From Isoetes taiwanensis (taxonomy: Eukaryota; Streptophyta; Lycopodiopsida; Isoetales; Isoetaceae): a DNA stretch of 64,000 bases. The stretch covers positions 1,622,561-1,686,560 of the forward strand of contig JAJEKV010000092.1 in NCBI GenBank assembly GCA_021234155.1, written 5' to 3'. How positions within the stretch are numbered: position 1 is the stretch's first letter; every line of letters starts with the position of its first letter. Position numbers and translations under genes: made by a program. The notes under the pieces were generated by a model that was not told the DNA's origin, searched no databases, and was given only the letters and a program-made list of their open reading frames with translations. Shown piece after piece: positions 7,201 to 60,353 of this stretch.

Positions 7201-7300
7201 GAAGTAGAGGTAGGAGCCCGGAGAATGGCCTTCACTAGAAATGACGCTGTTCCCAAGCTTGTCCTCTAACTAGACGAGCTTTGAGACAACAAAAGGTGGT
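4290..7300 (-). pseudogene. DUF7869-like gene, copy C (broken)
   Basis: The minus strand is collinear with the copy A gene from its start codons (about 7290) to its acidic C-terminus. The RRNLMDEHKM block lies near 6440-6490, and the LDNTTRENKNQ block lies near 5433-5470. Frames shift repeatedly. This copy helps to judge copy A: where copy A has an in-frame TGA (28835), copy C reads through at the equivalent place (about 5255), so that stop is not ancestral. Confidence 0.75.
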
Positions 7301-7689
7301 GGAAGTTTTTGTTCAACGGGCAGTTCGGCCATCCAACAACCGCAAAATAGTAAAGAGATTTGAGAAACTTTCTCAGAAGTGCGCAGCTTTTCTTATTCCC
7401 TAATACACTTCATGTAGAGTACAAGTAGACGCTCAGCATTAATCAAGTGAAAGTCAAAATAAAAGCTATTCGAATACACACAGAGTAGGATAGTAAAGCT
7501 AAACGTGATTCCGCCTACATAGAAAAAGAGCAAGATCTAAATGATACATTTAAAAGGAAATTTCGCTTCGCCATGTATTCCGGGGCCTCGAAATTAAGTC
7601 ATTAGCCTTCTTCATTATAATATTCAGAGACCGATTCATTCACATGTAGAGAAACATGGACAAGTCAAGAAGAAAGTACAACGCATAAT

Positions 7690-7985
7690 CATTTGCATGT
7701 CCGTTTATTCCCGAATACACTATCGCTTTCTCTCGAAGTAAAGTGTATTCGGATACACTTTTGCCTTCAATCATAAAGTGTGTTCGAATACACTTCAGTG
7801 AAAGTTTTAAAGTGTATTCGAACACACTTTCGCTTTTCAGGGAAGGCTTTATAGTGTATTCTCCGGACACACTTCGAGGGACAGACTTTCGAATACACTT
7901 TCACGAGCGGGAAAGAGAAGGGGAAAGTGTATTCGAATACACTTTCACCTTCGAGTGAAAGCAAAGTATTCCGAATACACTTTGT
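7690..7985. promoter_or_regulatory. Palindrome array between divergent genes, copy C
   Basis: At least six units of AAGTGTATTCGAATACACTT type occur, for example near 7740-7762, 7776-7796, 7814-7832 and 7924-7944. They are interleaved with CTTTCGCTTTTCAGGGAAGGC-like pieces. Here the centre is mostly TTCGAA, whereas copy A has TTCCGGAA. Confidence 0.75.
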
Positions 7986-26694: not shown

Positions 26695-29600
26695 ATGATG
26701 AACCGCCAGGAACAAGCTTCCACCACCTTTCGTTGTCTCAAGCTCGCCTAGTTCCGAGGACACGCTTTGGGAACAACGCCATTTCTAGTGAAAACCGGCA
26801 TTCTCCGACTCCTACCTCTACTTCATCGTTGTTGCTTCTCAAGACACACCGAGTCCAAAGACGTAATGTAGACTTCCACCACCCTTCCAACTGGCCACCA
26901 AGTCCTCAGAGACGGATTAATCGGCATCTCCTTCCAAAGCATCACCACCGCCGGAGCATGTTGCCACCACCCTTTGTTCCATCCCGGGACCACCACCTCT
27001 GAAGCTCCACAACAACGGCTGTTCAAGAATAAGCTACCCCCCGCTTGTAGCTTCGCCCCTTCATGCAAACATACAAGGAACACAGAAAGTAAAGAAAACT
27101 GTGAGATTCACTACCAATTCTCTCACCAGGACTTCACTACAAATGAGGACGACGCTCCAGCATGCACTCCTATTCACACAACGGTTGTGACACATGGATT
27201 TACAGAATTCCAGTCCGCTCTGAAGGAGATGTTTGCAAGAACGCCTTTTCAAGATGGTACAAGAACAGCTGATGCCACAACCTCTTATGGGCCATCACCA
27301 TCCTTTAACACTGTACCCCCGCCTTGTCCGGGAACAACTTCACGTGGTCTGTTTTCCTCTACAAACACACCACTCAGGACAGAGGAAGTCACCCCCAGAG
27401 TAGAAGTTTCATCCGAAGGTGAAGACACCAACGAGGAACAAAGAGATTACATGTTCTCCAGCCAACCTTCAAAGAAATTCAAGGTGGATTTTGGTTTGAG
27501 GGCGTGCTCCTCTGTAAGAAGAAGAAATCTTATGGATGAACACAAAATGAGGAGACTTTTGAGAACTAAATGCTGCTCATTGGGTTGCATCAACAGATTT
27601 AACATGGCTAAATTACGAGCAGTTAGAGACAACTACAGTTCCATGACATTGGCAGACCAGAATGCCTACTTAGCTTATCATGTAAGACCAGACCGCAACA
27701 CCTTCTTGCACTACATTAACCGTGAAGAAGTTTGCCAGAAATGTTTTATGGTTGTCCACCGTTTAGGGTCCACCAGAATGTCTAGAATACATAAAAGACT
27801 GGACAAAAATCCAGCAATCGATGATCATTGTGGACCAAGAAGAGTTGTAACCATGCATGCCCTTGTGGCTGTGTCATGGATGGAGAAATATTTCAGAGAA
27901 ACATGTGAGAAGCTACCTAACAGCAACATGTATCATTTAACTGATAACATCACCAAAAAAGATGTTTTTAATGAGTACAAAGAGACTTGCACTGAGCTTC
28001 AGCACATCTCTTACTCACACTTCACCAGACTGTGGAAAAGTGAATTCGGTCTTGTGAAAATTCCTAGAAAACATAGAATGTCTGTTTGCTCAAGGTGTGC
28101 GGAATTAAAGAGTCAACGAGAAACTGCAAAGACAGAGGTCGAAAGAAGTACGCTCATGTTCTCTAATCTCTCACTTGTTTTAAAGAAAATGCTTTGACCT
28201 GACTTCTTCTACAGATATTGTGCAACAGAACCTTGCCAGACATCGTGAACAACAAGCAGCAGAGAGAAGAAAGCTTGCCAAGCACAGAAAAAAAGCTCTT
28301 GAACGTCCACTGCAATACATGTCTGTTGTGATTGATGGAATGGACCAAAAAAAAACAACTCTACCACATTTCTTGAACATTCCTAAAGATGTGCCAGAGG
28401 AATGTTTTGTTAAGGTCCACCTTGTAGGAGCTATGGTCTTCAAAGGAAGTTTAAAGTGCAATGTATTTTTGACGTATCCAAACTTGCATGGTGACCCGAA
28501 CCTCACAATTACAATTCTTAACAAGGTCCTGTGCGAGCAAGAGCAATTACCACCAGTGCTTTATCTGCAACTTGACAATACTACAAGGGAGAACAAGAAT
28601 CAAACACTCTTCGCGTACTGTGCCATGTTAGTGGAGCTAGGGATCTTTAGAAAAGTGAAGCTCGGTTTCTTACTTGTAGGCCACACTCATGATCAGATTG
28701 ATCAAATGTTCAGCAGATTTTCTGTGCGCCTTAGTAGGAAGAAGGCTTTCTATCTTCCTTCTTTAGTTCGAATTATTGAAGATTCTTACACTCCCACTCC
28801 AGTGGTCGATCTTCTTAAAGAGACTGCTGATTTCTGAGAGTTTGTTTTCTCTCAACGTTCAAACAGAGAACAAGCTGTGAACAAGTTAAATGATCTCACC
28901 TTTCAACATCACATCAAGTTCTACTTGAAGGATGGCCAAAGCTTCTTACAGGGGAAGAAGTATACCACAACTAAGGACTGGAGTCCACCAGAGGGATTAA
29001 GCTTCCTTAAATATATTCCAGACACTTCCTTCATAGAACGTGCTGAACAACTTCCTCTCAAAAATCCTAAGGAGTCCAAGCAGAAGAAAAGTACCCCAGA
29101 GTCATCCTTAAAAGCCATTGAAAATGGAATTTCCTCAGGCTTTAAGTACTTCTTAGAAGAAGATCGGATGTGGTGGAGTAATTTCTTTGTCGAACAGAAA
29201 ATTGTTGTACAAAATATAGCTCTAAGACAGTTGCAAGAACCATTTCAATGGCCTGACACCTTCCATCAACCCCAGCACCAAGCAGGTCCAAGCAATGCTA
29301 CATTTGCACCTGCAGTAGAAGACGAGGAGGATCGAGTCATGTACCTCGGACCAAGACGCAGGAATGAGCCTCAAGGTAATATCACAGAAATTACCAAAGG
29401 TATGCTAATTGCTCTTCCGACTGAGGAGGATGACAAAGGTCGACCGTTCTGGATAGCAAAAGTGCTTGACACAGTCAAGGAGGAAGGCTTAATCATTAAA
29501 CTCAAGATTCATTGGCTTGCAACACGCTCAGAAAATGCTTTTGAAGGTAGATATGAGTTAGAAATGAGAAGCCAAGGAAAAGGGAGAAAGTCCAAGAAGG

Positions 29601-29851
29601 TGGGTTGTAGGGACGAGCTGAACCTTAATGACGTGACTATATTGTGCTATGATTTTAAATTGAAATCTGACAATCGTCTACACCAGAGGACTATCAATTT
29701 GCTTAAAAAAGCTTGTAATTACGAAGAAGATGATGAAGAAGGTGGTGGCAATGCTTCACCGTCTGTTGATAGTGATGAGGAAGATAACTCAAGCACTTCC
29801 TCGAGTGACAGTGAAAGAAGTGAAGGTGATGACGATGGCATAAATGAATGA
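26695..29851 (+). CDS. DUF7869-like protein, putative DDE-type transposase of element M
   Basis: Nearly intact. ATGATG at 26695 is the likely start, although the open frame in the first 280 bp is broken. Open frames run 26974-28147, 28215-28834 and 28838-29851. A 66-bp intron (GTACGC at 28149 to CAG at 28214) joins the first two in frame, and a single TGA (28835) separates the last two. The central part carries VIDGMDQKKT (about 28327), LQLDNTTRENKNQ (about 28567) and VGHTHDQIDQMF (about 28676), hallmarks I recall of the DUF7869 family. Their aspartates could form an RNase H-fold DDE/D site (inference). The C-terminal third has a Tudor- or chromo-like stretch (GMLIALPTEEDDKGRPFWIA) and an acidic serine-rich tail. 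No catalytic assignment is proven. Confidence 0.7.
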
Positions 29852-32293: not shown

Positions 32294-32887
32294 TGTTAGT
32301 CCTGTGCCTCCTGGTACAGGACTATTCATGCATACGACGGACCAGGTCAAGGCCAAGGATCCACAACCAGGCACGGGTCAGTCGTCAAAGGCCACGCAGA
32401 AGACCAAGCAGACCACGCAGACAAAGACCACGCCTGGCGTCAAGAGCAGGCGCTCAGACAAGTGACGGCCCGTCACCGCCCGCATCAGCGTCAGCGTGAT
32501 TTCAGGCACTTCAAGAGGCACCGCCAGCATTCCTGCAAATCAGGCCTTCTTCCAGGAGTCGGCACCGAAATCAGTCAGAGTGTCTATATTGGGCCAAAGG
32601 CCATTGTACTATATATATGAGTAGAGCTAGCACATGAGTTTTTAGATGAGTTTTGAGTCTTGTCTCACATCAGTTTTCTCTCGATTGCGAGAGCTCATGT
32701 ATCTTCATTGACATCAAGGAAGTTGTTCTCATTATTGTGGTCTCATTGTTCTCTTTTTGTTCTGTTCTCTCTTTCTTGTTCTTTTCTTGCAAATCACGCG
32801 TGACATAGCTCCCGGATTCTCCTGTTAGATACAAGGGTCCTCACAGAGGGCTGTCTTGCAGGAGTTCCCGAACCCAGACCCCAAACA
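32294..32887 (+). repeat. GyA 3' LTR, 594 bp
   Basis: It starts TGTTAGTCCTG and ends CCCCAAACA. It matches the GyB LTR (50761-51350, minus strand) over its length. It contains CTATATATATGAG (about 32610), a likely TATA region. The following bases AGTGG (32888-32892) would be the right half of a 5-bp target duplication whose partner is not in the window. Confidence 0.9.
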
Positions 32888-33768
32888 AGTGGCGTGGCTA
32901 CCGGCGTCAAGGGAAGAGCGTCACGGGCCGTGGGCTTTCCCACACGCTGACAGACGTCACACGTGCAAGCATAAGCGTGGGCATCTTTGAAGAGCGTGGG
33001 CCAAAAATATCCTGCCAAAAGAATTTTGCGTGCCGTGGCATCACCACTAAAATGATCACCACCAAGCCCCTCGTGGGCTTGTCGAACAATATCGGGCACC
33101 TCATGAGGAAGGACACAACGGCGGAGGACCATGTCTTTACCGCGTTTGTATAGATGGCCTGCAACCATAGTGTAGTCACGGACCTCTCTGAGAAACTGAT
33201 GGCGGCGGGAGCGAAGCTTATCTAGAGAGAGCGTCGGATCTTCTGGAGGAAGAGCGCCAGTGAGAAGATATTGCTGAAAGTTGTGAAACCAATGGGGCGT
33301 GGCCGTGACCAGGAACAATTGAGCGTCTGGAAAGGCGTCAGAAACACCCGTGGAGGGATCATCCGTGTGGATGCGTGAAAGATAATCAGGCACCACATGA
33401 GACTTGCCTGCCTTATGAACAATTTCGAAGGGAGCGAATTCTTGCAGAAGAAGGACCCAACGAGCAATTCTACCTGTGGGCGTGGCTTTGTTGATTAAAT
33501 AAAGAAGAGCTTGATGATCAACAAAGAACTTGATCTGGCTGCCCAACAAATAGTGACGGAAACGTTGGACACAGAAAACTAAGCCCAAGGCTTCTCGTTC
33601 CGTGGCAGAGTAGTTGCGCTCAGCAGGATTGAGTTTCCGGCTGGCATAGCGGATCGGTTTATCCGTGTGGTCATCATAGGCCTGTGAAAGAACAGCATCA
33701 ATGGCAAAAGCAGAGACATCAATATGAACATGAAAGGGCTTGTCCCATTGAGGAGGAACAAGCACCGG
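32888..33768 (-). pseudogene. GyB RNase H and integrase zinc region (cut)
   Basis: From 33763 downwards the minus strand reads VLVPPQWDKPFHVHIDVSAF, then RNase H blocks (LNPAERNYSATEREALGLVF; FFVDHQALLYLINKATPTG). An H2C2-type zinc site follows (HEVPDIVRQAHEGL and CTCDVCQR near 32950-33120). The frame is open across this part, so the segment was recently functional. The catalytic core of integrase is missing because GyA inserted at 32888. The left side joins the RT at 46930 once the chromovirus is removed. Confidence 0.85.
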
Positions 33769-35312
33769 TGTGACGTTCCAGCACAGTATACGGTCCCAGG
33801 ACGTATACTGTACTGCCCCGTCACGCGTACACGCCACTCCGACCGACGTGTACGCCAACGGATAACCAGGTAAGTAGCCCTTGGGGGCAACTTGTTAGAT
33901 ATGTTCACATGTTATTAATGTGCACATGTGCACATTAATGTGGGCACACCTTTCCATGTTGGCATATTTTGCCACCTAGCCATTAAAGGCAAGTGGGGCC
34001 TTTCCAATTATCCCACATGCCAAAATGGGTAATTGGAAACCCTAGCCTAAACCCCATGTCTATTTAGGGTAGGAAAACCCTAGCTTGCTAGTTTTCGTCC
34101 TTAGGGTTTTAGAGCTCGGGTTTTGGCTGCCCCAGAGCCAAAAACCGCCCCGTGACGCCTGCCCTTAATTGCGCCATCGGTTCCCCAAATTGATCAGCCC
34201 GGCCAGATGGTTGAACTCAGTCGGGAGGAGCCACTCAAGGATCAGATTTGGTCAATTTAATAGCTTAAACCGTCTTCTAGTCATAGAATCCGTAGAGGTT
34301 TAGACTATTAAATTGCCCATAGCAGCTATCTAGAGCTTAGATCTGGGACACTAACTAAAGAACCTAACTCTATGATTAGATCTAGTTCTTTAGTTCTTCC
34401 GTGATGTATTTGGATGATGTATCTGTGAACTCCTTGTATTGGGAAGGGGGTAGAGGCCCTAAAGCTTGTAGTTGATGCTCCTAGAGTAGCCTCTCTAGCA
34501 CACTTGTGAGATTCGCCCAGGCACAAGAACCACACCGGGTTGTGGGTGAAGGGGCCGACCGGCTTAGAAGGAGGTTCGTGTTTCGACTCTTGAACGATCC
34601 CTATGGTGTGTTAGTGCTACCGGGGTCATTGTGACTAGGTCTAATGGCTTACCACCGAAAAGGGTAAGGCATGGGCTCACACCGTGAAGTGGTGTACACT
34701 TTTGGGTTCGGTCGAATACGGCAAAGTGGGCCCTCTAGTCACCTTGAGTCAGCATGTAGATCTCGGAGGGAGTGATCCCTACCGCCCCATCGAACCGGGG
34801 AGATGAAACCCGTGAATAGCCCTTTTGGCTATGCATCCCGTGGCTACACAGTCCCAACACTTTCAAAGCCTACTCGCAAAGTGTGCACATGGGAGGGGCG
34901 GATGGAGTGGACAACCCAATGCCATGTTCTTATGCCGCCCAAATCCATTGCCATGAATTATGTCCGCAATGAACTCCGGAGACCCAAGCCGTCAGTCATT
35001 CCCTTGAGTCTGAGCCTTGGGTAGGATTCCCTATGTGATGTGCTGATCTTTGTCTATGCAGATATGTGGAGGACCATCCTTCGTGATGGTCATATGATGT
35101 TGATGTATGTACTACCGACATGTATGTTTACGCTTCCGCAGCCTAGGTAGGCCCCGAGGGAGAGGGGTAGAATGACACCTTCACTCTTCCCATCGGGACT
35201 CGTTACGGTGTGTTGATATGTGGAGGGCCCTGTATCAGCATGGAGCTGGTGTGGGGGAAGAACTCCTGTTTGTATACGGTGAGAGCACCGTATGCGAGTA
35301 GGGGACGTCACA
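33769..35312 (+). repeat. Chromovirus left LTR, 1544 bp
   Basis: Bounded by TGTGACGT and ACGTCACA. It contains a 10-bp perfect hairpin near its start (ACAGTATACG and CGTATACTGT, about 33786-33814) and AAACCCTAG / TTAGGGTTT motifs near 34045-34115. It differs from the right LTR mostly in short patches. Confidence 0.9.
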
Positions 35313-35313
35313 G

Positions 35314-35325
35314 TGGTATCAGAGC
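35314..35325 (+). promoter_or_regulatory. Primer binding site, tRNA-Met type
   Basis: TGGTATCAGAGC, one base after the left LTR, is the standard plant primer site complementary to the 3' end of initiator methionine tRNA. Confidence 0.95.
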
Positions 35326-35517
35326 AATGTTCTTGGAGACCAAGAGCAAAGCAACCGCCATGTCCCAAAGGTGGTACTAACTTGATAGGATCCTCAAGCC
35401 TCGAAAAGTGGGAAATTTTTTTCTCATCTTTGTAGTTTATGCTAAGCTAATAACAATTAAGTGAATTGGAATTTAACAAGATTAAAAAGAATGAGCCAAA
35501 ATTTTTCCAAGTGAGGT

Positions 35518-35775
35518 GGTCTCACGCATACCGCTACCGGTCGAGAACTAAATTTTAGTTTTGAAGCGAGGCGCAAGCTGTGAGACATCGAGCCAAGAAC
35601 ATCAAAACATGATGAATTTGAGAAACATAACGTGGTAAGGCTAATTCTAAGATAGGAATTAGTTAGAATAGCATGTTTTAATTACCTAAAAACCCTAGAA
35701 ATGTATGAGATCTCCATTTCGCTACCGTCGCAAAACTAAACATTAGTATTGGAACGAGGCTAAGTCGTGAGACCA
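35518..35775. promoter_or_regulatory. Hairpin pair upstream of the histone-like gene
   Basis: Two copies (about 35518-35587 and 35705-35775) of a roughly 70-bp palindromic module: GGTCTCAC start, an AACTAAA..TTAGT centre, and a GAAGCGAGGCGCAAGC or similar right arm ending in GTGAGAC. The right arm is well kept and the left arm less so. The same module occurs twice more at 37391-37660, before the second gene. Confidence 0.8.
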
Positions 35776-35875
35776 ATAGGTAGAAAAAGTCTGAAATAAG
35801 TATAAGTTTTAGCTAAGTTGGTGCCTTAGCATGTTAAACAGAGCAACTTGAGTTTTGACCTAAAATTCCCCAAGC

Positions 35876-35884
35876 TATAAATAG
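35876..35884 (+). promoter_or_regulatory. TATA box of the histone-like gene
   Basis: TATAAATAG lies 108 bp before the ATG at 35984 and about 100 bp after the second hairpin. The same TATAAATAG, hairpin and leader arrangement is found before the second gene. Confidence 0.65.
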
Positions 35885-35983
35885 ATGTAGAACCCCCTCA
35901 TTTTTTTCGCCCAAGCCCTAGAAATCCGCTCTTCCCAACTTAGGCGATCTTTGGGCGCTTTATCCGATTGACGATCCAGAAGC

Positions 35984-37245
35984 ATGGCCCGAACCAAACA
36001 GTAATCAAGGAAGCTGCCGCCCAGCGAAACCACCAAAGCCGCCACCGAGGCGGAGATCATTCGAAGATGCTTCGTGAGAGGCTCGCGAGAGGGGGTCGTC
36101 TTCGGACGAGGGAGCAAGACACGCCCGATCCGATTAATGTCTTCAACCAAAGAAGTGAGAGCAGACGAGGCCACATCACCCAACTCCATGGACGAGGGAG
36201 ACGAGGGAGGTGTATGAAGAAATAGAGCGGGAGATCCGCAGCAGAACAAGCGTAAGACCATTCAGACGCGACCCACGTAGATCCTCGAAAGCAGATGAGC
36301 AAGTGATGTGTCCGAGCCGCCAGAGGTAGCGCATCTTAGAAGGTTCATCGAAAAGTACGAAATTTACGTAAGAGAAGGGAAGACAAAAAGAGGAAAAGGG
36401 AGGAAGAGGAACAAAAGCGCCAGAAGAGAAGAAGAAGGCTTAAAGGGAAGTTCGTGGCTCGGCATAAGGAGAACGTAAGGACCGCCCGCCAAGGAAGAGG
36501 CCGAACCCCAAGATTGTCATCAAGGAGGCAACCCGACTAACCCCCAAACCCTCCGACGACTCTTTCTCGAGGAGGACTTCAACCCTAATGCCGCAGGTGG
36601 AAGCTCTTCCAAGCACCCAAGCGACGAAAGCAGAAGTACCGAAAGCAAAATGCAAGACCGAAAGCAACCCCAAAGAAGATCAAGTGCGTAAGCCCCCGAA
36701 AATCTCGCATGGGATAGAAAGAAGCAAACCACGACACCTGCCCGGAAGCCTACGCCACCGGCTGTGGTGAAGATTTACGAGAGGAAGATGAGGAAGCACC
36801 AGGCCTACATGAAGAAATGGGAGGCCTACAAAGAAATATTATGAAGAAAATGTGGTGAGGTTCATCGAGGGAGGGCGACCAACGGGCAAAAACCTTAAAG
36901 CCGCCACCACCGAAGCCCAAGGTTCCCAAGCCACCACCAAAGAAGAAAGCTGATAGAAAGGAGGTGGAGAGAAGAGCGCTAAGGGAGATTAGACACTTCC
37001 AGCGCTGCTACGGCCTCCTAATTCCCCGTGCCCCCTTCGCTCGGTTAGTGCGAGAAGTGATGCAGGCCTACAGAACAGACTTTAGAATCACGGACGAGGC
37101 GCTGCTGGCAATGCAAGAGGCGGCCGAGGCAAAGATAGTGCAACATTTTGAAGATTCAACAGCTTGCACTATCCACGCCAAGCGGATAACCTTAATGCGA
37201 CAAGACATGAGTCTTGCGACCCGCATAAAGGGAGAACGCCCTTAG
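35984..37245 (+). pseudogene. Histone H3-like gene inside the chromovirus
   Basis: The ATG at 35984 reads MARTKQ, then a stop (36002), then SRK: with one residue in place of the stop this has the H3 spacing of K4 and K9. A long basic tail follows (36010-36950, frames broken), ending in a Lys/Pro-rich linker. From 36970 to the TAG at 37243 the frame is open and reads a complete H3 fold: ALREIRHFQ, LLIPRAPF, RLVREV, QEAAEA, FED, IHAKR and TRIKGERP. Aligned by eye over 89 residues without gaps, about 49 match canonical H3. RHFQ, LLIP and LMRQD resemble plant CENH3, but loop 1 has the canonical H3 length. The tail is some 300 residues longer than in normal H3. As read it is a pseudogene. Confidence 0.8.
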
Positions 37246-37390
37246 AACTTGTTTTGTAAATAATTAAAATTTTTGTAATATAGAGCAGTTTTGTGTACCT
37301 TGATTGCATAAACTTGATTAATTAGAGCAAATTAATAAGTTTTAGCTTTTATTTCAGTGAAATAGGACATTTGCAAGCCGAGAGACATGA
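37246..37390 (+). terminator. 3' region of the histone-like gene
   Basis: AT-rich stretch with AATAATTAAAA and TTGTAATATAG after the stop codon, typical of a plant 3' untranslated region and polyadenylation zone. A separate transcript end here is inference. Confidence 0.35.
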
Positions 37391-37660
37391 TGTCTCACAG
37401 CTCGCGCCTGGTCGCAAAACTAAAAGTTAGTATTGAAGCGAGGCGCAAGCTGTGAGACCTCGCCCAAACTTGACCAAAACAGCTCCAAATCAGCCAAATA
37501 AGGGGTCAATTCTGCCTGATTTGATGAGCCCATCACCCTTACACCATTAGTTTACCCAAATTAGACACCTTTTGATCGAAATGAGATCGATGTGTCTCAC
37601 AGCGGCGCTTTGGTCAAAGAACTAAAAGTTAGTTTTGAAGCGAGGCGCAAGCTGTGAGAC
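37391..37660. promoter_or_regulatory. Hairpin pair upstream of the second chromovirus gene
   Basis: Copies at 37391-37460 and 37593-37660. Each starts TGTCTCACAGC and ends GCAAGCTGTGAGAC, giving arms of about 20 bp, with a smaller palindrome ACTAAAAGTTAGT at the tip. The two share GAAGCGAGGCGCAAGCTG. Confidence 0.85.
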
Positions 37661-37850
37661 CTCTTACCATTTCTTCACCAGGACTTGTCAAAGTCACCTT
37701 CAACCTATTGCATAGCATCTTTTAGGTAATCTAGCCTTGTTCAAGCATCCCATATAGTCCTCAAACTCCCATTTTGACCTCAGATAGGCTAGAATTACCC
37801 AACCCTAGGAAATTTTCAAGTCATCCAAAAATTAGGGTTTTCCCCTTTTC

Positions 37851-37860
37851 TATAAATAGA
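37851..37860 (+). promoter_or_regulatory. TATA box of the second chromovirus gene
   Basis: TATAAATAGA lies 124 bp before the ATG at 37975. Flanking leader sequence (CCCCTCA, AAATCTGCTCC) resembles that after the first TATA box, so the two promoters look duplicated. Confidence 0.65.
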
Positions 37861-37974
37861 CCCCTCACTTCTCAGATAGCACCCTACAAATCTGCTCCCC
37901 GCCCTTCTAGCCGATTTCTCAACTCCCCCGAGGCGCCCTTGCAACCGTTTGTTACCCTCTTACGCAATTAATCA

Positions 37975-39510
37975 ATGGCAACCGATTTCCACAGATGGTA
38001 CAGCAGCGCCCTCATGTCGCTGAGGGCGGCGTCGACCAAATCTTCTAGATCTTGGGAAGGAGGTAGATGTCCAAGCAACCTTGCACGCGACCCCCGCCTT
38101 ATAGTAGAGTCCCGACCGAGTTCCAAGCTAGGGTAGAACCAGCTAGTGCAACTCCCCCTTGTGTAGGCTATTTTGTTCCTAGGCAGGTCCCTGTAGTAAA
38201 GCATTAGGCGATGTCCCTAACATCGCCAAATACCTCACAAACAAGCGCGATCGCACACCTGAGCCAATGGTCCTAATCAGCCAACAGGACCAAGTACTTC
38301 TCTTTCAACACCGCCACGGCAATCTTTCTCCCCCGGTGCGAGAACACCGTGGGGGAAACCTCCATTCCCCCCATGGACGTGGACCCATTGGCCATAGCAG
38401 CAGAACAACGGCTCCTCACACAGTATGAACAGGAGCACGAAGGGAAGGAAGAAGACTCGGATGAACAGGAATCAGAAGAAGAGGAAGACTATGTCGAGCT
38501 CGACCCCCGAAGAGCGGCGACAAAAGAGCAGAGTGGCAAGACTTCGAAAAGAAGCCGGAGACTCTCGAAGTCGCGCCACCCCTGGGTTAGGCATCACAAG
38601 CCTAGCTCCCATTATTGTCGAAGGTGAGGAGTTTCGCTCCTAAGTTTACATTCAAAACCTCCCCGGAGTGCGAGGGGAAAGGGAGTACCGACCTGAAGAG
38701 TTGCTGCACCAACTCCGAAGAACGGACTTGGACGACTTCATCGTCCGAGGAGAATCTGACTTCCCCCTCCAAGTAAGGGAAGCCGACACTTACACGGGAG
38801 AGTTTACCTCCGACATCCAAGCCTACAGCAACATCAGGCAGATTATGGAGGCAGACAAGGCCGAGAACAAGCTACCGACGGAGGAAGAGTTCCTTGCTCT
38901 TCAAGAACAGATGGGGATCCGCTATGCGACCTCAAACATCTTAACGGCAAGCTCGTCCGCAGAACCTCCCCGGGAGAGGACAGCGCACGACCCTCGGGGA
39001 GGGCCGCCAATCGAGACTACAGGGAGCTCACCACGGTGGAGGTTGATGACTTCGGAAGCAGACACAGAGCTGGATACCGAGTGGCCGAGGACCCGTCTCG
39101 CAACGACAGGTCACTACGGTATTACCTGCCACTGCTGATGGATGGAAGAATAGCGGTTATCCACCGCAAGTTCACCCCCAGAGGCGAGGAAGGAGTATCG
39201 TTGCTGATTGCACTCTCAGGATTCGGCCGGCATGCTTTGGTTACCCCTTAATACCAGTATGCAATCCGGTGAAGAGAGCGGTAGCACTCGACGCCTTCGA
39301 CTTCGCCATACCTTACGGTGGGCAAGGCAAGATCTGCTGTGATGGCAGACTTATACCTCCCACCGCAGAATAGAAGATTTGGCAAGAGCATTACAAGGTG
39401 GATCTCCAGCCAATGTCCTTAGGAACTTGGGCCATTCAGTGGGAACAGCCCAAGTGAAAAAGTTCCTGGAGGATAATCCATCTTACCGGCGACAACAGGA
39501 ATGATTAGCC
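37975..39510 (+). pseudogene. Second extra gene of the chromovirus, unrecognised
   Basis: The ATG at 37975 (MATDFHRWYSSALMSLRAAS) is well placed behind the TATA box. Frames change several times. Identifiable blocks are an acidic stretch at 38430-38500 (EEDSDEQESEEEEDYVELD), a block at 38690-38920 (EELLHQLRRTDLDDFIVRGE; NKLPTEEEFLALQEQMGIRY), and a C-terminal block near 39110-39250 (YLPLLMDGRIAVIHRKF). No family recognised. The acidic stretch could suit a histone-binding partner of the neighbouring H3-like protein, but this is only suggested by the shared promoter architecture. Confidence 0.5.
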
Positions 39511-39659
39511 GTAGTCATAATTTTTGTATTAGTGTAAAATAAAATATAAATATAATATTCTCTTGCACTATAAATGTTTTGTTGATATATTTTGTGTTCC
39601 CCCCCCCAACCACACCAACAAACATTAATAATGCAAGAAAACAAGGAAAACTAACCATG

Positions 39660-41090
39660 TAGCTATGAACCACTTGTGTATGCAGCTAGAGGCCTAAGCG
39701 CAGGAGAACGACAACTGCGGGAACTTATAGAGGAACAGAGTCCGCCCAGGCCACGCCCGGCAAGGAACCTGCTTGAAGAATTTGGACAAATGACCCCAGA
39801 AGAAGAAATATCGCAAATGAGGACGGACCTCGAACAGATAAAGGCTTTGCTAGCCGCATAAGCAGGAACAGGTTCGGTGGGTAACGCCAACCGCCGCGAA
39901 GCATCAGCTTTCGGAGAACGGTAGAGACAAGAAGAGGAGCAAGAGAGCAAAGGTCCCCCAGCTCGGACTCCTCCGACTCAAGCTCGATTCAGACAGGATT
40001 CCGAGGAAGAAGAAGGGCGTAACCAACCGAAAGCGCATTTAAAGGCGAGAGGAACACCCCGGACGGACGACAAAGGGACACAAGAACCTCGACTACCGTA
40101 AGAAAGTAGACTCGTGATTGGGAAATGTTTGGAAGGCCAGAAGCTCAAGCAATTCTCAGCGAGAACAGCGTCGCATGGAGGCGAGAGGCTTGGCTTGACG
40201 AGATGAGCGAATACGGCAATGCCTATGGTATGAAGGATAAGGATAAAGGCAGTGGTGGCAACAAATAACCCGAAGGGAGCAAAGACGCATTTGGTGGAAG
40301 GGCTATGCCAAGGCTCATGGCTTAAGCAGGGATGCTTGCAGTGTTCAAGAAGTTTGCTAAAAGCCTTCTGCCGCCATTACGCCCCAAGAGAGCACAAGTC
40401 CAAGATGATGCAACAGTTCTACAAAGTTGCGGCAAGGCAACAAGTCAAGAGCTTTAAATACACCTGAGGAATTTATGAGGCTAAGGTCAGTATGTGCCAA
40501 AGTTAGGTGAGAAGCATGCGGTGGAAAGCTACATTGAAGGTCTAAATGAGGAGATCCGCGAAGTTTGTAAGGGCAATAAACCCTAGAACAAAGGTCGAAG
40601 CGGAGTCCAAGGCAATAAGCTTGCAAGGAGCGGGGACCTCGAATAATAGCGGCAGAGGCAGCAAGTATTATCAAGATAAAGGCAAAAGGAAAGCGGTTTT
40701 AGCCCGAGGACAAGCCCGGGGACGGCTAGAGCCCCATATAGTGGCAATCAAGGGAAGCGGCAGAGAAGAAGAAGCGGTGTCTTTTCAAAGACAAACAGAA
40801 GGGTCAAACTACTCCAAAGCAAAGACGATCCTTCAAGCAGCCATGCCCAAGGAAAAGAGACAGGAGTGCATAGAAAAGCAGCTTTTGCTTCGTGTGTTTC
40901 CACCGGGCCATAGACAAATGAATCGCCCATATGTCATGAGTGCAGCGCCAGCGAGTTGGGAGATTGGGACACCCTGTCTCGACGACGACGGCGAGGAGGC
41001 CCGCGACTACATTTGTGGTGAGTGTCATATCTTTGCCGCAATAGATCTGAGCAAGCGAGAGAGCCGAAGATAAAGTAATTTCCACGAGTG
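39660..41090 (+). pseudogene. Chromovirus gag (broken)
   Basis: Begins with a charged region (YAARGLSAGERQLRELIEEQ, 39676 on), followed by frames containing HAVESYIEGLNEEIREVCKG (about 40516), a gag-like block. A basic, low-complexity region follows. A cysteine/histidine-containing region near 40900-41030 may be the decayed zinc knuckle. Several frameshifts. Identification rests mostly on position before the protease. Confidence 0.55.
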
Positions 41091-44000
41091 GGAAAGGCCA
41101 AGGCCAAGGCCAAGTCATTTGTAGTCCTGATAGATTCGGGAAGTAGCCATAACTTTGCATCCCCCAGAATGGTTCAAATGTTGAAGTTGAAACCATTAAA
41201 GTCAAAGCCAAGGCCCGTTGTCTTAGCAAGTGGAGCAAGAAGGCGGCGGCAGTAAAAGAATCAACTTTGACATCGACTTGCCAGGGATTAAGATCCAGAT
41301 GGGGGCAGAAGTAATGGGCATCGGCAAATACGACTTGATAATAGGTATGGAGTACCTTGGACCAGCAGGGGCCATTATTGATTGTGGAAAGCGGAAGGTG
41401 ACCTTCCCAGCACCCGACGGCAATATCATTGAGATAACAGGTAAAGAAGTTGTTCCTATCATGCAGTGTATGTCTTCTAAACGACTGTTCAAGTGCATCA
41501 AGAGTGAGCAAGTGGCATACATCTTCAAGCTTGAGATTGGTGAGCCGGAATTGGAAGGAAGCAGAGAAGACAAGATGCTCAGCAAGTTACCGAAGCAAAT
41601 AGCTAAGTTGATCACGGAGTTCCACGATCTCTTTCCAGATGAGATCAAGCAGCTCCCTCCTTATAGGGGAGTCGAGTGCGAGATAGCACTCGAACCAGGA
41701 ACAAAGCCAACAAGCAAGGCTCCATATAGAATGACAACGCAGGAGTTGTCGGAGCTGAAGAAAAAGCGATTCAGGAGCTGCTTTCGACCTAGGTTTCATT
41801 AGACCTAGTGTCTCGCCGTTTGGGCGCCCATTCTTTTGTCAAGAAGAAGGATGGATCTTTGAGGATGTGCATAGACTATAGGCAGTTGAATAAGCACACC
41901 ATTAAGAACAAGTATGCGCTTCCAAGATCCGGCGACTTGATGGATCGGCTTCAAGGAGCAAAGATCTTCTCCAAAATCGACTTAAGGTCGTTATCATCGA
42001 TCTTCGATAAAGGAGGAAGATATGCAGGACCGCCGTGACGCGGTATGGGCATTATGAGTTCACAGTGATGCCTTTCGCTTATCAAATGCCCCCGCAACGT
42101 TCATGAGGCTCATGAACGATATCTTCAGGGAGTTCCTGGACACCTTCGTGATTGTTTTCTTTGATGACATTTTGGTGTATAGCAGATCCCTTGAAGAGCA
42201 CGTGCAACACTTGAGAAGGGTGCTAGAGAAGTTGAAGAGGCACCCGGTTATGCGCCAAGTTGTCGGGCGCCACTTCGCAATGAGAGAAGGTGGAATACCT
42301 TGGTCATGTGATCTCGTGAGAAGGCATCTCAACGGACCCCGCCAAGATTGAAGCAAATGATTCGATTGGTCGGGCCGAAGAATGTGCATGAGGTCAGAAG
42401 TTTTCTCGGGCTAGTAGGGTACTACAGGAAGTTCGTGAAGAACTTTGCTAAGATAGCATCCCCGTTAACAGACCTGACGAGGGCAGAGAAGGTGAAAGAT
42501 TGGGTAGAGCATTGGCACAAGAAAGCCCAAAAGGGGTTTGAATTGTTGAAAGAAGCTCTGACGACAGCCCCTGTCTTGACCTTGCCGGACCCGGAGAAAG
42601 ATAAGCTTGTAGCAACAGATGCGAGTAAGATAGCTACAGGTGCAGTGCTTATGCAAGAAGAGCGTGTGGTAGCGTATGATTCCAGGAAGATGAACGACGC
42701 CGAGACGCGCTACCCAACGCACGATCAGGAATTGCTTGCGGTTGTCAGGGCATTAAGAATATGGAGGCACTATCTCTTGGGAAGGAAGTTCCAATTGGAT
42801 ACCGACCATCAGAGCCTCCAATATGTATTCACGCAACCACACCTTAATCTGGCGGAGATGGATGGAGTTCCTCGAAGAATATGACTTTGATATAGTCTAC
42901 AAGCGGGAAGCTCAATGTGGTAGCAGATGCGCCTTTCAAGGCATCCCCGACAACTAGAGTGCATTGCAATGCAATTTCGACGCTCTCCAGCGACTTTGGT
43001 AAGAAGATTGAAGAGTCCTTGCCAACGGATGTGGATTTCAGGGAAGTATGGGCAAGCCTCTCTAAGGAGGCTAGAACAGATAAAGAGCGGGAGGCCTTCA
43101 AGCATTATAAGAAGGAAGGCAACCTGTTATACCATAAGAACAAGTTGTGCGTACCTGAATCATCAGGTGTAAGGAAGTTGATCCTCCATGACACGCACAA
43201 CAGCCCAATAGCTGGCCATGCGGGATTCATGAAAACATATTTCAAAGTGCGCAGCAGCTATTATTGGCCAGGAATGAAGAAGCAAATAGCTCGCTACATC
43301 AAGGAATGTCAGCTATGCCAGCAGACGAAGGCGGAGCAGCTTCGAATTCCAGGGGCATTAGAGCCATTAGCGGTGCCAAACGCTAAGTGGGAGGTAATCA
43401 GCATGGATTTCATCACAGGACTCCCAAGAACAGCGAGAGGCAAGGACGCCTTGATGGTAGTGGTCGACAAGTTGTCGAAGATGGCACATTTTGTGCCTTG
43501 CAGGACCACAGATACAGCTATGGATACAGCAAAGCTCTTCACCAAAGAGATCTTCAGGCTTCATGGCATGCCAAGGGAGATTATCTCCGACAGGGATCCG
43601 AAGTTCATGAGTGCCTTTTGGCAAGACCTCTTTGCGACGATTCAGACCAAGCTATCCATGAGCACGGCGTATCATCCTCAGACGGATGGCCAGACGGAGC
43701 GGACCAACAGGATTTTAGAGGACATGCTACGAAACTATGTCTGGAATAAGCAAGGTATGTGGGAAGAATTTATTCACTTGGTGGAGTTTGCATACAATAG
43801 CACCAAGCAGGAATCATCCCAAATGTCGCCGTTTATGATCAATTACGGCTATCAGTGCCTAACTCCAGACACTTGGCACAACCCCGTGTCAAAAGTGGAA
43901 GTCTCGCAGCAGATGTTGGCTGATATGCAGCAGCTTGTGGAAGAAGTTCGAGGGTATCTGCTAGCAGCAAGAAGTCGACAAAAGAGCATCGCCGACAAGC

Positions 44001-44500
44001 ATCGAACAGTAAGAGAGTTCAAAGTTGGAGATGATGTTTGGCTCAAGATCAAGGTGAAGCAGGCGAAGCTCAGGATTGGGAATTGCAAGAAGCTTGCTCC
44101 AAGGTGGGCTGGACCTTTCAGAACAGTCGAGAGAGTAGGTAATCAAGCCTACAAGCTAGACTTGCCAGCACACCTAAAGATTCATAAGGTCTTCCATGTG
44201 AGTTTGTTGAAGAAGCACACTCCAAATCCAGACGAAGTCTTGGACACTCCAACGTTGTTGGAAATGACAGAGGAGCAGCTGGAAATAGTTCCAGAAATGA
44301 TTCTTGATAAAGCTTTCAAGAAGACAAGGAGGTCGGAGTTCCTCCAATACTTGGTCAAGTGGAAACACTTGCCAGTGGAAGACGCGACGTGGGTACTTAA
44401 GAAGGATTTAGTAAAGCAGTACCCACAGTTTATGGAGCAATGGGACGGCAAGGTCATCTCCGAAGAAATCGGCTCAGGCATGTCGATTTGTGTAGGTTAA
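41090..44500 (+). pseudogene. Chromovirus pol: protease, RT, RNase H, integrase, chromodomain
   Basis: Protease motif LIDSGSSHNFAS near 41125. RT blocks [20 protein letters not shown] (41826-41900) and active site FFDDILVYS (about 42157), broken in between near 42000-42060. RNase H with VATDASKIATGAVL (about 42610) and TDHQSLQYVF. Integrase is in one open frame from 42917 to the TAA at 44498: MDFITGLPR (first D, about 43404), ISDRDPKFM (second D), HPQTDGQTERTNR (catalytic E). A C-terminal chromodomain follows at about 44270-44455 (EFLQYLVKWKHLPVEDATW). Chromodomains of this group bind methylated H3 or other chromatin marks and steer integration. Few lesions, so a fairly young copy. Confidence 0.9.
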
Positions 44501-45375
44501 TTCTTGTGTAGTTAGGATTAATCTACGCATGCCACCTATGCTTGGTATGGGTCGCATGCGTTGTTACCGATGATGAGACCACTACGGTGATCTCTAGGGC
44601 GTGGTGTAATGTCAACGTAGGCATGACCGCGTTTTCGCTTGGGCGAGTGGAAGGTAGATTAGAAAGTCTACTTCTGTCCCACGGAAGTAGACGACCTCGA
44701 GAGAAAGGAGGTCATTAAGGAATGCACTGATAGGAAAAGCACCTCTAGCCCCATATATGCTTTGATAGGAGGAATCAGGCCTTCACGCCCCATATACGGG
44801 AAGGACGCTGGGCAACTAGGGTGTAGGCATGAGCGGCATATAGGCATATAGGCGCTATCTCCACGGCCATAATGGAAGATTCACCCTCTTCCTACGCCGG
44901 GAGATTAGCCATGCATCCATGTAGATAGGTGGGGTGGTCACCATATAACCAAAAATTTATTAAATAATTAAAACGGTACTAACGTAGTGTCGACCTGCAG
45001 GCCAGTAGAGCGCTCCGGAGGGCAAGGAGGTCGAGCTACGAAGACTTGCAACACAAATTTTGTTGGAATGTGTCGCAAGGAACGAAGAGTACCTCGAACA
45101 ATAATTATAGATATGAAATGTTGAAATTTTGTATAACTTAATGTCATAATAACTGAGATAGCGAATACCTTGTTTAATGAGGTTATGAATTGTTAAGTAT
45201 TCCATAGTATGATGACGTGATAATGTTTTAAAAATATTACCTTAGGGTAATCCTGTTAAATGTATAACTATTATATTGTATGCATCACGTTGATTGCAGA
45301 TTGCAGATTAGGAAGATCCCAAGGTGGGGAGACCCACGATCTTTGCGGACGACATCATTTCAAAGGTGGGGAGAA
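44501..45375 (+). other. Chromovirus 3' non-coding region and polypurine tract
   Basis: No gene. A perfect 9-bp hairpin GTCTACTTC / GAAGTAGAC lies at 44666-44692. The polypurine tract AAAGGTGGGGAGAA (45362-45375) directly precedes the right LTR. Confidence 0.75.
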
Positions 45376-46929
45376 TGTGGCGTTCCAAAGACAAAGATAT
45401 ACGGTCCCGGGGCGATATCGTATCTTTGCCATCGCATTACACGCCACTCCGACCGACGTGTACGCCAACGGATAACCAGGTAAGTAGCCCTTGGGGGCAA
45501 CTTGTTAGATATGTTCACATGTTATTAATGTGCACATGTGCACATTAATGTGGGCACACCTTTCCATGTTGGCATATTTTGCCACCTAGCCATTAAAGGC
45601 AAGTGGGGCCTTTCCAATTATCCCACATGCCAAAATGGGTAATTGGAAACCCTAGCCTAAACCCCATGTCTATTTAGGGTAGGAAAACCCTAGCTTGCTA
45701 GTTTTCGCCCTTAGGGTTTTAGAGCTCGGTTTGGCTGCCCCAGAGCCAAAACCCCCTCCCGCCCAAGCTTAATTGCGCCATCGGTTCCCCAATTGATCAG
45801 CCCAAAGAGGATGGTTGAACTCAGGTCAGGAGGAGCCACTCAAGGATCAGGTATTTGGTCAATTTAATAGCTTAAACCGTCTTCTAGTCATAGAATCCGT
45901 AGGTTTAGACTATTAAATTGCCCATAGCAGCTATCTAGAGCTTAGATCTCGGACACTAACTAAAGAACCTAACTCTATGATTAGATCTAGTTCTTTAGTT
46001 CTTCTGTGATGTATTTGGATGATGTATCTCTGTGAACTCCTTGTATTGGGAAGGGGGTAGAGGCCCTAAAGCTTGTAGTTGATGCTCCTAGAGTAGCCTC
46101 TCTAGCACACTTTGTAGATTCGGCCCTGTGCACAAGAACCACACCGGTTTGTGGGTGAAGGGCGGGACCGGCTTAGAAGGAGGTTCGTGTTCGACTCTTG
46201 AAGCGATCCCTATGGTGTGTTAGTGCTACCGGGGTCATTGTGACTAGGTCTAATGGCTTACCACCGCGGGTAAGGCATGGGCTCGACACCCGTGAAGTGG
46301 TGTACACTTTCCGGTGGGTTCGGTCGAATCACGAGGCAAGTGGCCCTCTAGTCACCTTGAGTCGGCATGTAGATCTCTCGGAGGGAGTGATCCCTACTTG
46401 CCCCATCGAACGGGGGAGATGAAACCGGGAATAGCCCTTTTGGCTATGCATCCGTGGGCTCTGATCAGTCCCAACACTTTTCAGCCTACTCTACGCAAAG
46501 TGTGCATGGGAGGGGCGGATGGAGTGGACAACCCAATGCCATGTTCTTATGCCGCCCAAATCCATTGCCATGAATTTCATGCAATGAACTCACGGAGACC
46601 CAAGCCGTCAGTCATTCCCTTGAGTCTGAGCCTTGGGTAGGATTCCCTATGTGATGTGCTGATCTTTGTCTATGCAGATATGTGGAGGACCATCCTTCGT
46701 GATGGTCATATGATGTTGATGTATGTACTACTGACATGTATGTTTACGCTTCCGCAGCTAGGTAGGCCCTGAGGGAGACAGGGTAGAATGACACCTTCAC
46801 TCTTCCCACTGGGACTCGTTACGGGTGCAGTGATATGTGGAGGGCCCTGTATCAGCATGGAGCTGGTGTGGGGGAAGAACTCCTGTTTGTATACGGTGAG
46901 AGCACCGTATGCGAGTAGGGGACGTCACA
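45376..46929 (+). repeat. Chromovirus right LTR, 1554 bp
   Basis: Starts TGTGGCGTTCC and ends ACGTCACA. Mostly identical to the left LTR, with differences bunched in GC-rich patches. The hairpin near its start has a different stem sequence (CAAAGATATACG and CGTATCTTTG). Confidence 0.9.
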
Positions 46930-46934
46930 ACCGG

Positions 46935-47770
46935 GGCCTGAGTAAGTAATAGCTTCAACTTCTGAAAAGCAGCTTCCGCTTGGGGATTTCAAGCCCAAGT
47001 GGATTCATCACCTGTGAGTTTATGAATGGGATCAGCGATAGCTGCAAGTCCAGGAATGAAGGTGGAATAGTAATTAACCTTACCCAGGAAGGAACATGTC
47101 TCTTTGATATTAGATGGTGCTTGAGCCTTCAGTACACAACTGATTTTAGCAGGATCCGTGGTGATCCCATCTTTGCTAACCACATGTCCCAAAAGAACAC
47201 CTGAGGTGACGCAGAAAGTGCACTTCTCAGGATTGAGACTAATGCCAGATTCATCACATATTTGAAAGACAAGCTCTAACTTCTCCAAGTGGTCATCCAT
47301 GGAGCTGTAGGCTGAAAAATCATCTTGAAAGATCTGGAGAAAAGGTTGATCCTTCAGATAGTCTTGAAAGACAGAGAGCATGATGCGCTGAAAGGTTGAA
47401 GGAGAGTTTGATAAACCAAAAGGGACCACCTTGTAGGCAAAAGTGCCCCACGGAGTGGTGAAGGTAGTTTTGAGTTGATCTTCATGCTTGATAGAAATTT
47501 GATTGTACCCCGAGAAACCATCCATGAAAGAGTACATCTCATGACCAGCAACTTCTTCAAGAACCTGGTCAGTGAAGGGAAGCGGGAAGTGATCACGCTC
47601 CGTAGCTTGATTGAGTTTTCTGTAGTCCAGGCAAACGCAGATCTTACCATTGTGTTTGAGAGCAATGACGATGGGGCTCACCCATTCAGAATGTTTGACT
47701 TCATATATCAGGCCAGCAGCTAAGAGTTTGTCAATTTCGGCCTTGACGCGGTCACGGTAATTTGGGTTGA
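46935..47770 (-). pseudogene. GyB reverse transcriptase
   Basis: Open on the minus strand from 47681 to the chromovirus insertion. It reads CLDYRKLNQATERDHFPLPF, MYSFMDGFSGYNQISIKHED, PFGLSNSPSTFQRIML and the active site IFQDDFSAYS near 47315. The DDFSxY pattern is typical of the Athila/Tat group. FQDD in place of the usual FxDD with a hydrophobic x is notable but shared with GyA, so it is a family feature. The reading continues into RNase H at 33768 when the chromovirus is removed. Confidence 0.9.
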
Positions 47771-47916
47771 GCCTGTACTGTCGTTGCTAGATTGGGCGTG
47801 CATCAGGTTTGGTAGGAATGGTGAGTTCCCCCAGCTCTTTTTTGATACCTCGAAGGTCTTTGTAGCTCCAAGCGAAGATATGTTTGAACTTTTTGAACAG
47901 CGTCACAGCACGTGCT

Positions 47917-55300: not shown

Positions 55301-57149
55301 ATGGTCAAGTCTTTAGGGATGGAAGACATGTCGAGCTTTCACCTTAATGTGAAGCACACAGTAGTTCTTGATGGGAGCAGAGCTGCTTTGAGTGACATTT
55401 CGAATCTTGCTTCTGATTCCTCAAAAGATAATGGTAAGGGCAAAATGCTTGATAGATCTAGGAAAGAGAAAGTCGGGAAATGCATTAGATTTGTTGAACA
55501 TGTTGCAAGGGAGTATTTCAGCAGGGGATTATCAGTTTTTGAGATTGATATGCTAGCCAGTTTGGTGATGAGGCAATAGATGCATACATGCAACATGCTC
55601 AAGTGCCTAGAATGTTTACTACACTTGAAATGCTTGCAAATCCTACTGTACTTGATGATGGAGTTCGAGTACCTTTTGTAGAAATTGATGAAGACCTCCA
55701 GAAGGAAGTAGATGCTGGTGATGCATAAAAATATGCCAATAAAATTGCATGGGGCAGGAAGAGATTTGATCTTTGGAGGGAGTTTGTAGGGCTTCCAGTT
55801 GATAGGAAGATTGAGGAGGTGGACCTTCCAGAATTTGCTATCCAACTTGAGAAATTTATGCTGCAAGTGACGAAATGAAATAGACAGTTATGATCGTAAG
55901 TTTAATGTATTTTATTTGTTTATTTCCTTACATTTTAATTCCATTCATTTCTTCTAATATTTTCTTTTTTGTTAATAATTTGCATGATATGTTTATAAAT
56001 TTGGTAATATTATCAGAAGGCAGTAAGAAATCACTATTGCCAACACTGGTGTACAGTAATATTCTTTTGATATCAGAGAGAGCCCTACCTTTGAGCGAGC
56101 ACGCTTAGCTTGTGTGGCAGCAATGCAGACATCTAGAAGAACTCCCGGAGTCTGTGGATGAGGTAGGATATGCTGATGAGTTAGCTTTGATGGCGGACAT
56201 TGATCATCATATCAATCATCCAAAAGGACTTCAAAGGAGGTAAATTATTTAACTTTCATTTTTTATTAATTAGTTCCAGATTATTAGGTTTTCAATTTAG
56301 GTTTTTGATTATTAGGTTGGATGATTGGTTTTTATCTTATTGCGTATCAAGGTTCGCGATTCGTGGTCAAAAGGAGTTGGACTTGTTAGTTATGCCAGAC
56401 TTTTTAGTTGGAGTGGAAAATGGGAGTGAATACTTGGAGTACGATGAACGAACTAGCAAGAATTACGGTGCAGACATGAATTGATACCAACAAGAGCAGT
56501 TTAGGTCTGCTTGTAGATGTTATGAGGCTGATGTTGTTGTAACCTATAGACAGTTGTTGAGACATTTACCTGATCCGAAGCCGAATGATGATGGGACAGT
56601 TCAACCTAAATTCGGTTTCACGCAGGTGATAGTATAATTATGTCAATAGGGTTAGTGCACGAAAGTTAACGGGGTGGATGAAGTACATGCCTAAAACAGT
56701 CGGCGTTGAAGGAAATTTTTTTGGCAAGTCCGCGGTGCATTACTCTGATTATTTCTAGGATGATTCATGTTGGAGTTCTAGAGTCCACGTAGGTATGCGG
56801 ATTCGGAGACGGAGGACAGCCGAGGCATATAGCAGGCAAGTTTTGTTGTTATATTTCTAATTTACCTGTATTTAATATTTTTAACTTACAATGTTGTCTT
56901 CTTTTTAGATATGGCAAGAATATAGAAGTGCAAGCAAAGTGTGCTATGTCTGTTGTGAGTAATATGTTTGGTGAGAATGGGCAGAGGAGAATGTATGATG
57001 AGGTTTATGCTAAAGAGCTAGAGAAGTTGGATGAGTTGGATCGTAACGCTAGTGCCATAAATGAGCAGGTTTTGGCAGATTCTAAAATTGAAGAAACCAA
57101 ATCAGGTACTTTGATTTCTGCTATCGGTGGCTTGTTAGACAGTTTGTAG
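55301..57149 (+). pseudogene. Tyrosine recombinase-like gene (DUF3504/Crypton-like)
   Basis: The N-terminal part (55301-55880) contains GRKRFDLWREFVGLPVDRKI and AIQLEKFMLQVTK, the DNA-binding N-domain style of this family; stops lie at 55577, 55726 and 55876. After an intron ending at about 56350 the catalytic part reads FAIRGQKEL and EYLEYDERTSKNYGADMN, matching the family's xEYLEFxERxTKTRxG block. Copy 4 (60136-60300) best shows the rest: GKSGRTTVISRM (conserved Arg) and ITGQRTAEAYSR. A 73-bp intron with a GC donor (56836) and AG acceptor (56908) leads to YGKNIEVQAKC. The Tyr two bases after the junction fits the nucleophile. Ends at TAG 57147. The family moves Crypton elements and was domesticated in animals as ZMYM/KIAA1958-type genes. 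Confidence 0.7.
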
Positions 57150-60100: not shown

Positions 60101-60353
60101 ATAATTATGTCAATAGGGTTAGTGCACGAAAGTTAATGGGGTGGATGAAGTACATGCCTAAAACAGTCGGCGTTGAAGGAAAATTTTTTGGCAAGTCTGG
60201 TCGTACTACAGTTATTTCTAGGATGATTCATGTTGGAGTTCTAGAGTCTGTAGGTATGCGGATTACAGGACAGAGGACAGCGGAGGCATATAGCAGGCAA
60301 GCTTTGTTTTTATATTTCTAAATTTACCTGTATTTAATATTTTTAATTTACAA
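56028..60353 (+). repeat. Tandem array of about 1.15-kb recombinase 3' exon units
   Basis: Units start at AAATCACTATTGCC: 56028, 57186, 58351 and 59495 (periods 1158, 1165, 1144). Units 1-3 each hold the same exons and introns up to the last exon and the phrase CTTCCATTGTCTTTAG. Unit 4 is cut at 60353 by the Helitron, inside the GC-AG intron. Units are highly alike. Unit 3 carries the most indels, and unit 4 has the cleanest catalytic exon. Confidence 0.9.

Follow-up and report, generated by a model that had tools for sequence, protein, structure and literature searches.

Can an LTR retrotransposon carry a gene for a core histone and keep it as its own? Few host proteins are as constrained as the core histones, and the defining feature of chromoviruses is a chromatin-reading domain. 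The question is raised by a stretch of 64,000 nucleotides from Isoetes taiwanensis (the window), in which a reading of the sequence alone had noticed a histone H3-like gene inside what it called a complete chromovirus.

The element and its histone gene in the window

A Ty3/gypsy chromovirus occupies positions 33769-46929 of the window, nested within an opposite-strand Ty3 element of which an RNase H with an integrase zinc domain (32794-33891) and an RT (46989-47783) can be recognized. The insertion is bounded by a 5-bp target site duplication, ACCGG (33764-33768 and 46930-46934), and by paired LTRs of 1544 bp (33769-35312, TG...CA) and 1554 bp (45376-46929). Internal to these, on the same forward strand, are a primer binding site, TGGTATCAGAGC (35314-35325), which we take from its motif to be of the initiator-Met type and which recurs exactly in 16 of 20 other copies read as 10-kb loci, and a polypurine tract, AAAGGTGGGGAGAA (45362-45375), read from the sequence. 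Alignment of the two LTRs gives 1410 matches, 118 mismatches and 22 gaps, with the differences clustered: identity averages about 98% in 10 of 12 ungapped blocks, a mean that omits two blocks at 76% and 83%. The four longest shared blocks are 97-99% identical, and the first ~70 bases (33769-33840 against 45376-45450) are strongly divergent, each LTR start apparently having, by eye, an inverted repeat of its own.

The coding regions follow the Ty3 order of gag, protease, RT, RNase H and integrase, as assigned by Pfam in another copy, L021. A tblastn comparison with L021 places gag and pol (capsid, protease, RT, RNase H) at 39670-43029 of the window, forward strand, interrupted by frameshifts and stops; an open integrase frame (H2C2, rve, SH3_Tf2-1) is found at 42896-44497, with a chromodomain at its C-terminus (44288-44446; PF00385, E=1e-10, above its cut-off). 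Because gag and pol are broken, the element is complete in its layout but not in its coding capacity. Some of the frameshifts and stops may be errors of a Nanopore-based assembly. According to the available text of the genome description, that assembly comprises 204 scaffolds and 909 unplaced contigs, 1658.30 Mb in all, and was built from Nanopore reads with Illumina polishing; the word histone does not occur in the main text of that paper (PMC8566536).

Elsewhere in the window, an element with a DUF7869 protein (PF25273, E=2.9e-48) is present at 26872-29851 and, on the reverse strand, at 4663-7768, the two copies being 86.6% alike and lying near palindromic GAATACACT repeats. A tandem array at 56018-60353, made up of nearly four copies, about 96% alike, of a unit of ~1158 bp, contains no frame of 150 aa. 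Searches of the window for Rfam families (at gathering score) and for tRNAs found none.

The histone gene (35984-37245, forward strand) does lie between the primer binding site and gag, as the sequence-only reading had placed it. Its MARTKQ start is present at 35984 but is followed immediately by an in-frame TAA, the tail tip (35984-36028) reading MARTKQ*SRKLPPSE; the frame changes thereafter, and tip and fold stand in different frames. An open frame at 36859-37242 encodes the C-terminal part of a linker and the histone fold itself (36967-37242). Profile search returned a histone-fold match for this frame, to the Pfam Histone family (PF00125, E=1.2e-28), and solved H3 chains (PDB sequences) are matched at a best E=3.6e-27. 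The fold is of H3 type, with an aN helix, and aligns to canonical H3 without gaps, so the description of it as full-length and ungapped holds. A modest AlphaFold2 model of the frame (mean pLDDT 69.6, pTM 0.42) contains helices aN, a1, a2 and a3, and the 50 matches listed by Foldseek for this model are H3-bearing nucleosome or octamer entries, with a TM of ~0.45 by query length.

Behind the histone gene is a second frame, ORF2 (37975-39501, forward strand), likewise broken in the window copy. Each of the two genes is preceded by the TATA box TATAAATA, a putative internal promoter, on the forward strand: at 35876-35883, 108 nt before the H3 ATG, and at 37851-37858, 124 nt before that of ORF2. 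An inverted repeat, GTCTCACAG...CTGTGAGAC, stands before ORF2 at 37392-37458, with a second of the same kind at 37594-37660; the pair on the upstream, H3 side is imperfect in the window. The repeated inverted-repeat modules that precede the two TATA boxes span 35518-35790 and 37389-37663, and they give the impression of a single promoter module that was duplicated.

The gene across the genome and the constraint upon it

Whole-genome searches covered an assembly of 1,658,258,908 bases in 1110 contigs. With the 92-residue fold as query there were 9128 first-look candidates, 150 of which were scored; all of these, the window copy included, show 82-100% identity, and an internal stop interrupts the fold in 5 of the 150. 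A degenerate 33-base pattern for AKRVTLMRQDM matches exactly at 782 places, 402 of them on one strand and 380 on the other, against 0 for the control. Besides the window copy, 40 copies were read: 20 as 10-kb stretches (L009-L028), picked for open frames of 418-492 aa, and 20 as 3-kb stretches (L029-L048), taken from the upper part of the list regardless of frame length. The whole H3 frame from MART to its end (417-444 codons) is open in 13 of the 40, all among the 20 long-frame picks, and absent as such from the other 27. The MARTKQ start is thus joined to the fold in these 13 copies, if not in the window.

Behind H3, the 20 10-kb loci carry ORF2 (20), gag (18), RT (14), integrase (13) and chromodomain (9) in constant order; the stretches read stop close to where pol should end, and some of the copies are cut or interrupted. 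The TATA box TATAAATA precedes both H3 and ORF2 in 21 of 21 copies. Where the start of the gene could be located, the box stands 107-113 nt ahead of H3 (20 of 21 copies, among them L013, in which the H3 ATG itself is lost) and 111-124 nt ahead of ORF2 (15 of 21). Exact inverted repeats, whose arms carry GTCTCACAG or TCTCACAGC, precede H3 in 15 of the 21 copies and ORF2 in 19. ORF2 is intact in three copies (L010, L022, L028), at 508-515 aa, and belongs to no Pfam family; it has one weak NCBIfam match, at E=0.18, far below the cut-off.

An intact H3 protein of 417-444 aa begins with the tip MARTKQ(T)ARK and ends in the H3 fold, which is ungapped; between the two stands a long, charged linker. 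The linker, of about 300 residues, is specific to the element and replaces the rest of the H3 tail; by eye it contains no K27-like ARKS motif. The ARTKQTARK tip of the family, interrupted by the stop in the window copy, most commonly takes the form MARTKQTARKxRPGE, and 32 of 41 copies match it at 8 or more of 15 positions; five of the remaining nine read MARTKQ and then diverge, and four are without the pattern. Among the 32 alignable copies, which were chosen by tip similarity itself, A1, T3, K4, Q5 and R8 never change, 30 retain K9, and S is absent from the variable position 10.

With the window frame as query, a set of 5.8 billion proteins gave 966 matches, of which the 120 listed carry a histone domain; the best among the matches listed reaches 56% identity over 85%. 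The entries for these 120 bear no mark of an element-borne origin, though most are without a name. The 422-aa protein of L010 gave 1330 matches, and the 120 listed cover 21-38% of it. Viral contigs scanned by LTR motif, H3 frame, integrase, ORF2 alignment and H3 alignment yielded no relative.

Selection on the gene was estimated as pairwise Nei-Gojobori dN/dS over 41 copies, using 738 pairs with dS above 0.15. The 92 codons of the fold are ungapped in 41 of 41 copies, with a stop in one. Median dN/dS is 0.055 at a mean dS of 0.80, a value biased downwards because the copies were retrieved via the fold; the shifted frames of the same stretch give pooled pN/pS of 2.36 and 2.02. The tip, RT and chromodomain, all outside the search query, give 0.048 (15 codons, from 57 of the 78 pairs among 13 full-length copies), 0.044 (12 of 21 copies) and 0.051 (9 of 21), and constraint on the fold is close to that on the element's RT and chromodomain. 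Other segments, each compared only where found ungapped, range from the gag capsid at 0.049 (12 of 21) and the C-terminal part of the linker at 0.073 (40 of 41) to RNase H at 0.142 (10 of 21) and ORF2 at 0.19-0.21 (14 and 15 of 21). Along the 13 full-length H3 proteins, dN/dS is 0.21-0.23 in columns 16-270, 0.081 in columns 271-360 and 0.057 in the fold. Purifying selection thus acts on both the fold and the tip. The conservation across copies for which the sequence-only reading had asked is there, and a lone, unconserved fragment is contradicted by these data.

A second family of H3 fusions

A genome search with canonical H3, again with 150 scored rows, separates 15 loci at 91-93% identity from 135 at 70-85%. 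L049, from the former set, reads as ordinary H3. The five loci read from the latter (L050-L054) encode something else, a different N-terminal domain fused to a near-canonical H3 fold, in a protein of 409-420 aa (four of the five being read from their start). This family B, as distinct from family A of the window element, is represented by 633 exact places (322 and 311) of the pattern RVTIMPKDLALA, with 0 for the control; the count applies to the wider pattern, with MGN for arginine, and the narrower one, with CGN, finds 77. Over five sequences, dN/dS is 0.032 in the fold and 0.111 in the N-terminal part. The ARTKQTARK tip is absent from family B, and for that reason cannot be the shared core of function.

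Family B also has a neighbor in common with family A. A relative of ORF2 adjoins the H3 gene of L054, with 22% identity over 265 aa; compared by hhalign, the pair reaches a probability of only 42% (E=2.6e-4). A search with this relative gave 3118 first-look candidates, 150 of them scored, and at least 49 places (49 of 65 rows compared) have it 171-253 nt downstream of a family B H3 gene on the same strand. No relationship between the N-terminal domain of family B and either ORF2 or the linker of family A was found by hhalign. No gag-pol match occurs within 5 kb behind the H3 of L054, and a 1-kb stretch from 1.7 kb behind it occurs three times, all on the same contig, so this copy seemingly ends early. 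The three occurrences, at 95-100%, fall within 54 kb (G000:C1101:1656770-1710923), a local duplication.

Low dN/dS, a TATAAATA before both genes and the existence of a second H3 family together identify an element gene under selection rather than a captured fragment. The H3 gene is a regular, selection-kept part of this chromovirus family. That the same plan of H3 fold, new N-terminal domain and ORF2 is found in two families suggests a strategy, not an accident.

Possible action and descent of the element histone

The explanation that we consider probable is that a chromovirus lineage took up an H3 gene and retained it as an accessory gene of its own, encoding a variant that enters host nucleosomes with an element-specific tail. 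The gene would probably be expressed from its own TATA promoter, and the protein, with its fold of canonical length, its ARTKQTARK tip and its charged linker of ~300 residues, would most likely pair with host H4 and enter host nucleosomes, fixing the element-specific tail on chromatin. Both families share a C-terminal H3 fold, a new N-terminal part and ORF2, an arrangement in which nucleosome entry would place an element-specific domain on chromatin. Such entry is not certain, since positions that we number as R63, P121 and K122 of H3 are changed in the element protein. Once there, the tail might serve integration as a tether or landing mark, or the variant might replace the H3 sites used in silencing; these are the two favored uses, and they appear about equally likely. 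A loop in which the chromodomain reads H3K9me on the element's own histone is weakened as an idea, for the chromodomain appears to have just one of HP1's three aromatic cage residues.

Alternatively, the H3-like protein might never meet host nucleosomes and act inside the particle, condensing or chaperoning RNA or cDNA or aiding nuclear entry. The charged linker would suit such a role, constraint on the fold is similar to that on the gag capsid, and the 120 listed relatives cover at most 38% of the L010 protein. That said, a conserved ARTKQTARK tip and a full-length fold fit chromatin better, and action in the particle is unlikely.

We also regard it as unlikely that the protein is a decoy whose tip engages host readers or writers of H3K4 and H3K9 and weakens silencing, with the fold serving only for stability or H4 binding. 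The invariant tip residues and the constant lack of S at position 10 are what such a decoy might be expected to show, as is the lack of an ARKS motif in the linker, but the 32 copies in question (of 41) were selected for their tips. Moreover, conservation is about equal in fold and tip, and family B has the ORF2 partner yet no tip at all.

The sequence-only reading had also pointed to a likeness to CENH3, and it is conceivable, if improbable, that a CENH3 has been retained here and steers the element to centromeres. The motifs RHFQ, LLIP and LMRQD do resemble plant CENH3, but LMRQD is not diagnostic, because P0066, a database H3 without a loop-1 insertion, has it too. Loop 1 of the element H3 has the canonical length that had been claimed for it, with no insertion in the alignment, whereas CENH3 is recognized by a loop 1 longer than that of canonical H3, and that of Linum CENH3 (P0116) is one residue longer. 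Overall identity is even-handed: family copy L009 matches host H3 at 52 of 91 positions, near the 49 of 89 first counted by eye against canonical H3, and Linum CENH3 at 51 of 91. In a tree of 29 rows and 91 columns, a long branch (length 0.77) leads to the family A clade (100/100), which the best tree places apart from plant CENH3, and family B forms a clade (100/95) grouped with host H3 (85/91). A joint clade of family A with plant CENH3 is nonetheless not rejected (p-AU 0.353, with two plant CENH3 rows only, one of them entered by hand), and neither is one of family A with family B (p-AU 0.178). With these values, one capture or two, and an H3 or a CENH3 source for family A, are all possible.

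It is very improbable that the copies are dispersed genes for an H3 variant of the host which retroelements simply carried along. Host genes would be expected to show strong constraint and many open frames, but the copies read have the gene at a fixed position ahead of ORF2 and gag, with TATA boxes that match, and this speaks for the element, as does a dN/dS like that of the element's own genes; the 15 loci at 91-93% to canonical H3 exist separately. The idea of a functionless host fragment hitch-hiking in the element, for which the broken window copy and known capture of H3 by transposons (with all element copies in P. (Pseudocercospora) fijiensis inactivated by RIP; available text of PMC6710886) might be cited, was rejected on dN/dS, since a fold with stops in just 5 of 150 scored copies, nearly as constrained as RT and chromodomain, could not have been retained over a mean dS of 0.80 without selection.

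Precedents and meaning

Histones are also encoded by viruses, as with the long-tailed H4 of bracoviruses and the histones of Marseillevirus. These cases are alike in that a core histone, with an extended tail in one of them, is encoded by a mobile genome and may enter host chromatin; they differ in being DNA viruses, whereas here the carrier is an LTR retrotransposon and the histone H3. Orchid Ty3 elements reportedly carry an m6A demethylase domain (PMC9289625).

The closest described case is that of hAT DNA transposons of Dothideomycete fungi, which captured histone H3 and likewise hold a host H3 inside a mobile element in tens or hundreds of copies (PMC6710886). In Pyrenophora tritici-repentis many of the copies carrying H3 are described as potentially active. 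Those elements are DNA transposons with TIRs and an 8-bp target site duplication, unlike the Isoetes element with its LTRs and 5-bp duplication, and the available text of that report describes neither a new N-terminal tail nor a selection test on element copies (PMC6710886). Plant chromoviruses share with the Isoetes element the character of Gypsy LTR elements with a chromodomain, and a survey of lycophyte and fern chromoviruses includes Isoetes, but no histone gene is described in the text available from it (PMC2864245); here, H3 and ORF2 stand before gag, each behind a TATA box. Accessory ORFs of plant LTR elements are comparable as extra genes, and one of them, gene23 of Grande, has its own, internal promoter. 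Such ORFs lie more often between pol and the 3' LTR than before gag, as here, and the word histone does not occur in the main text of the source (PMC7264820; available text). In the open-licence literature, no LTR retrotransposon with an H3 gene was found, nor a selected histone H3 in such an element, in keeping with the novelty first supposed; the fungal hAT H3 is the one precedent.

If true, a histone-supplying LTR retrotransposon would mark a step from chromatin reader to possible chromatin maker, and element-directed nucleosome composition would become directly testable. With its diverged sequence and canonical tail tip, the element H3 also amounts to a natural experiment on the residues that an H3 requires. 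More tentatively, and with less confidence than we place in nucleosome entry by the one lineage, at least two families encoding selected H3 variants with different N-terminal domains and an ORF2 partner may mean that retrotransposons help to form their own chromatin, more than 1,400 pattern places (782 and 633) feeding variant histone into host nucleosomes and thereby guiding integration, resisting silencing or joining centromeres.
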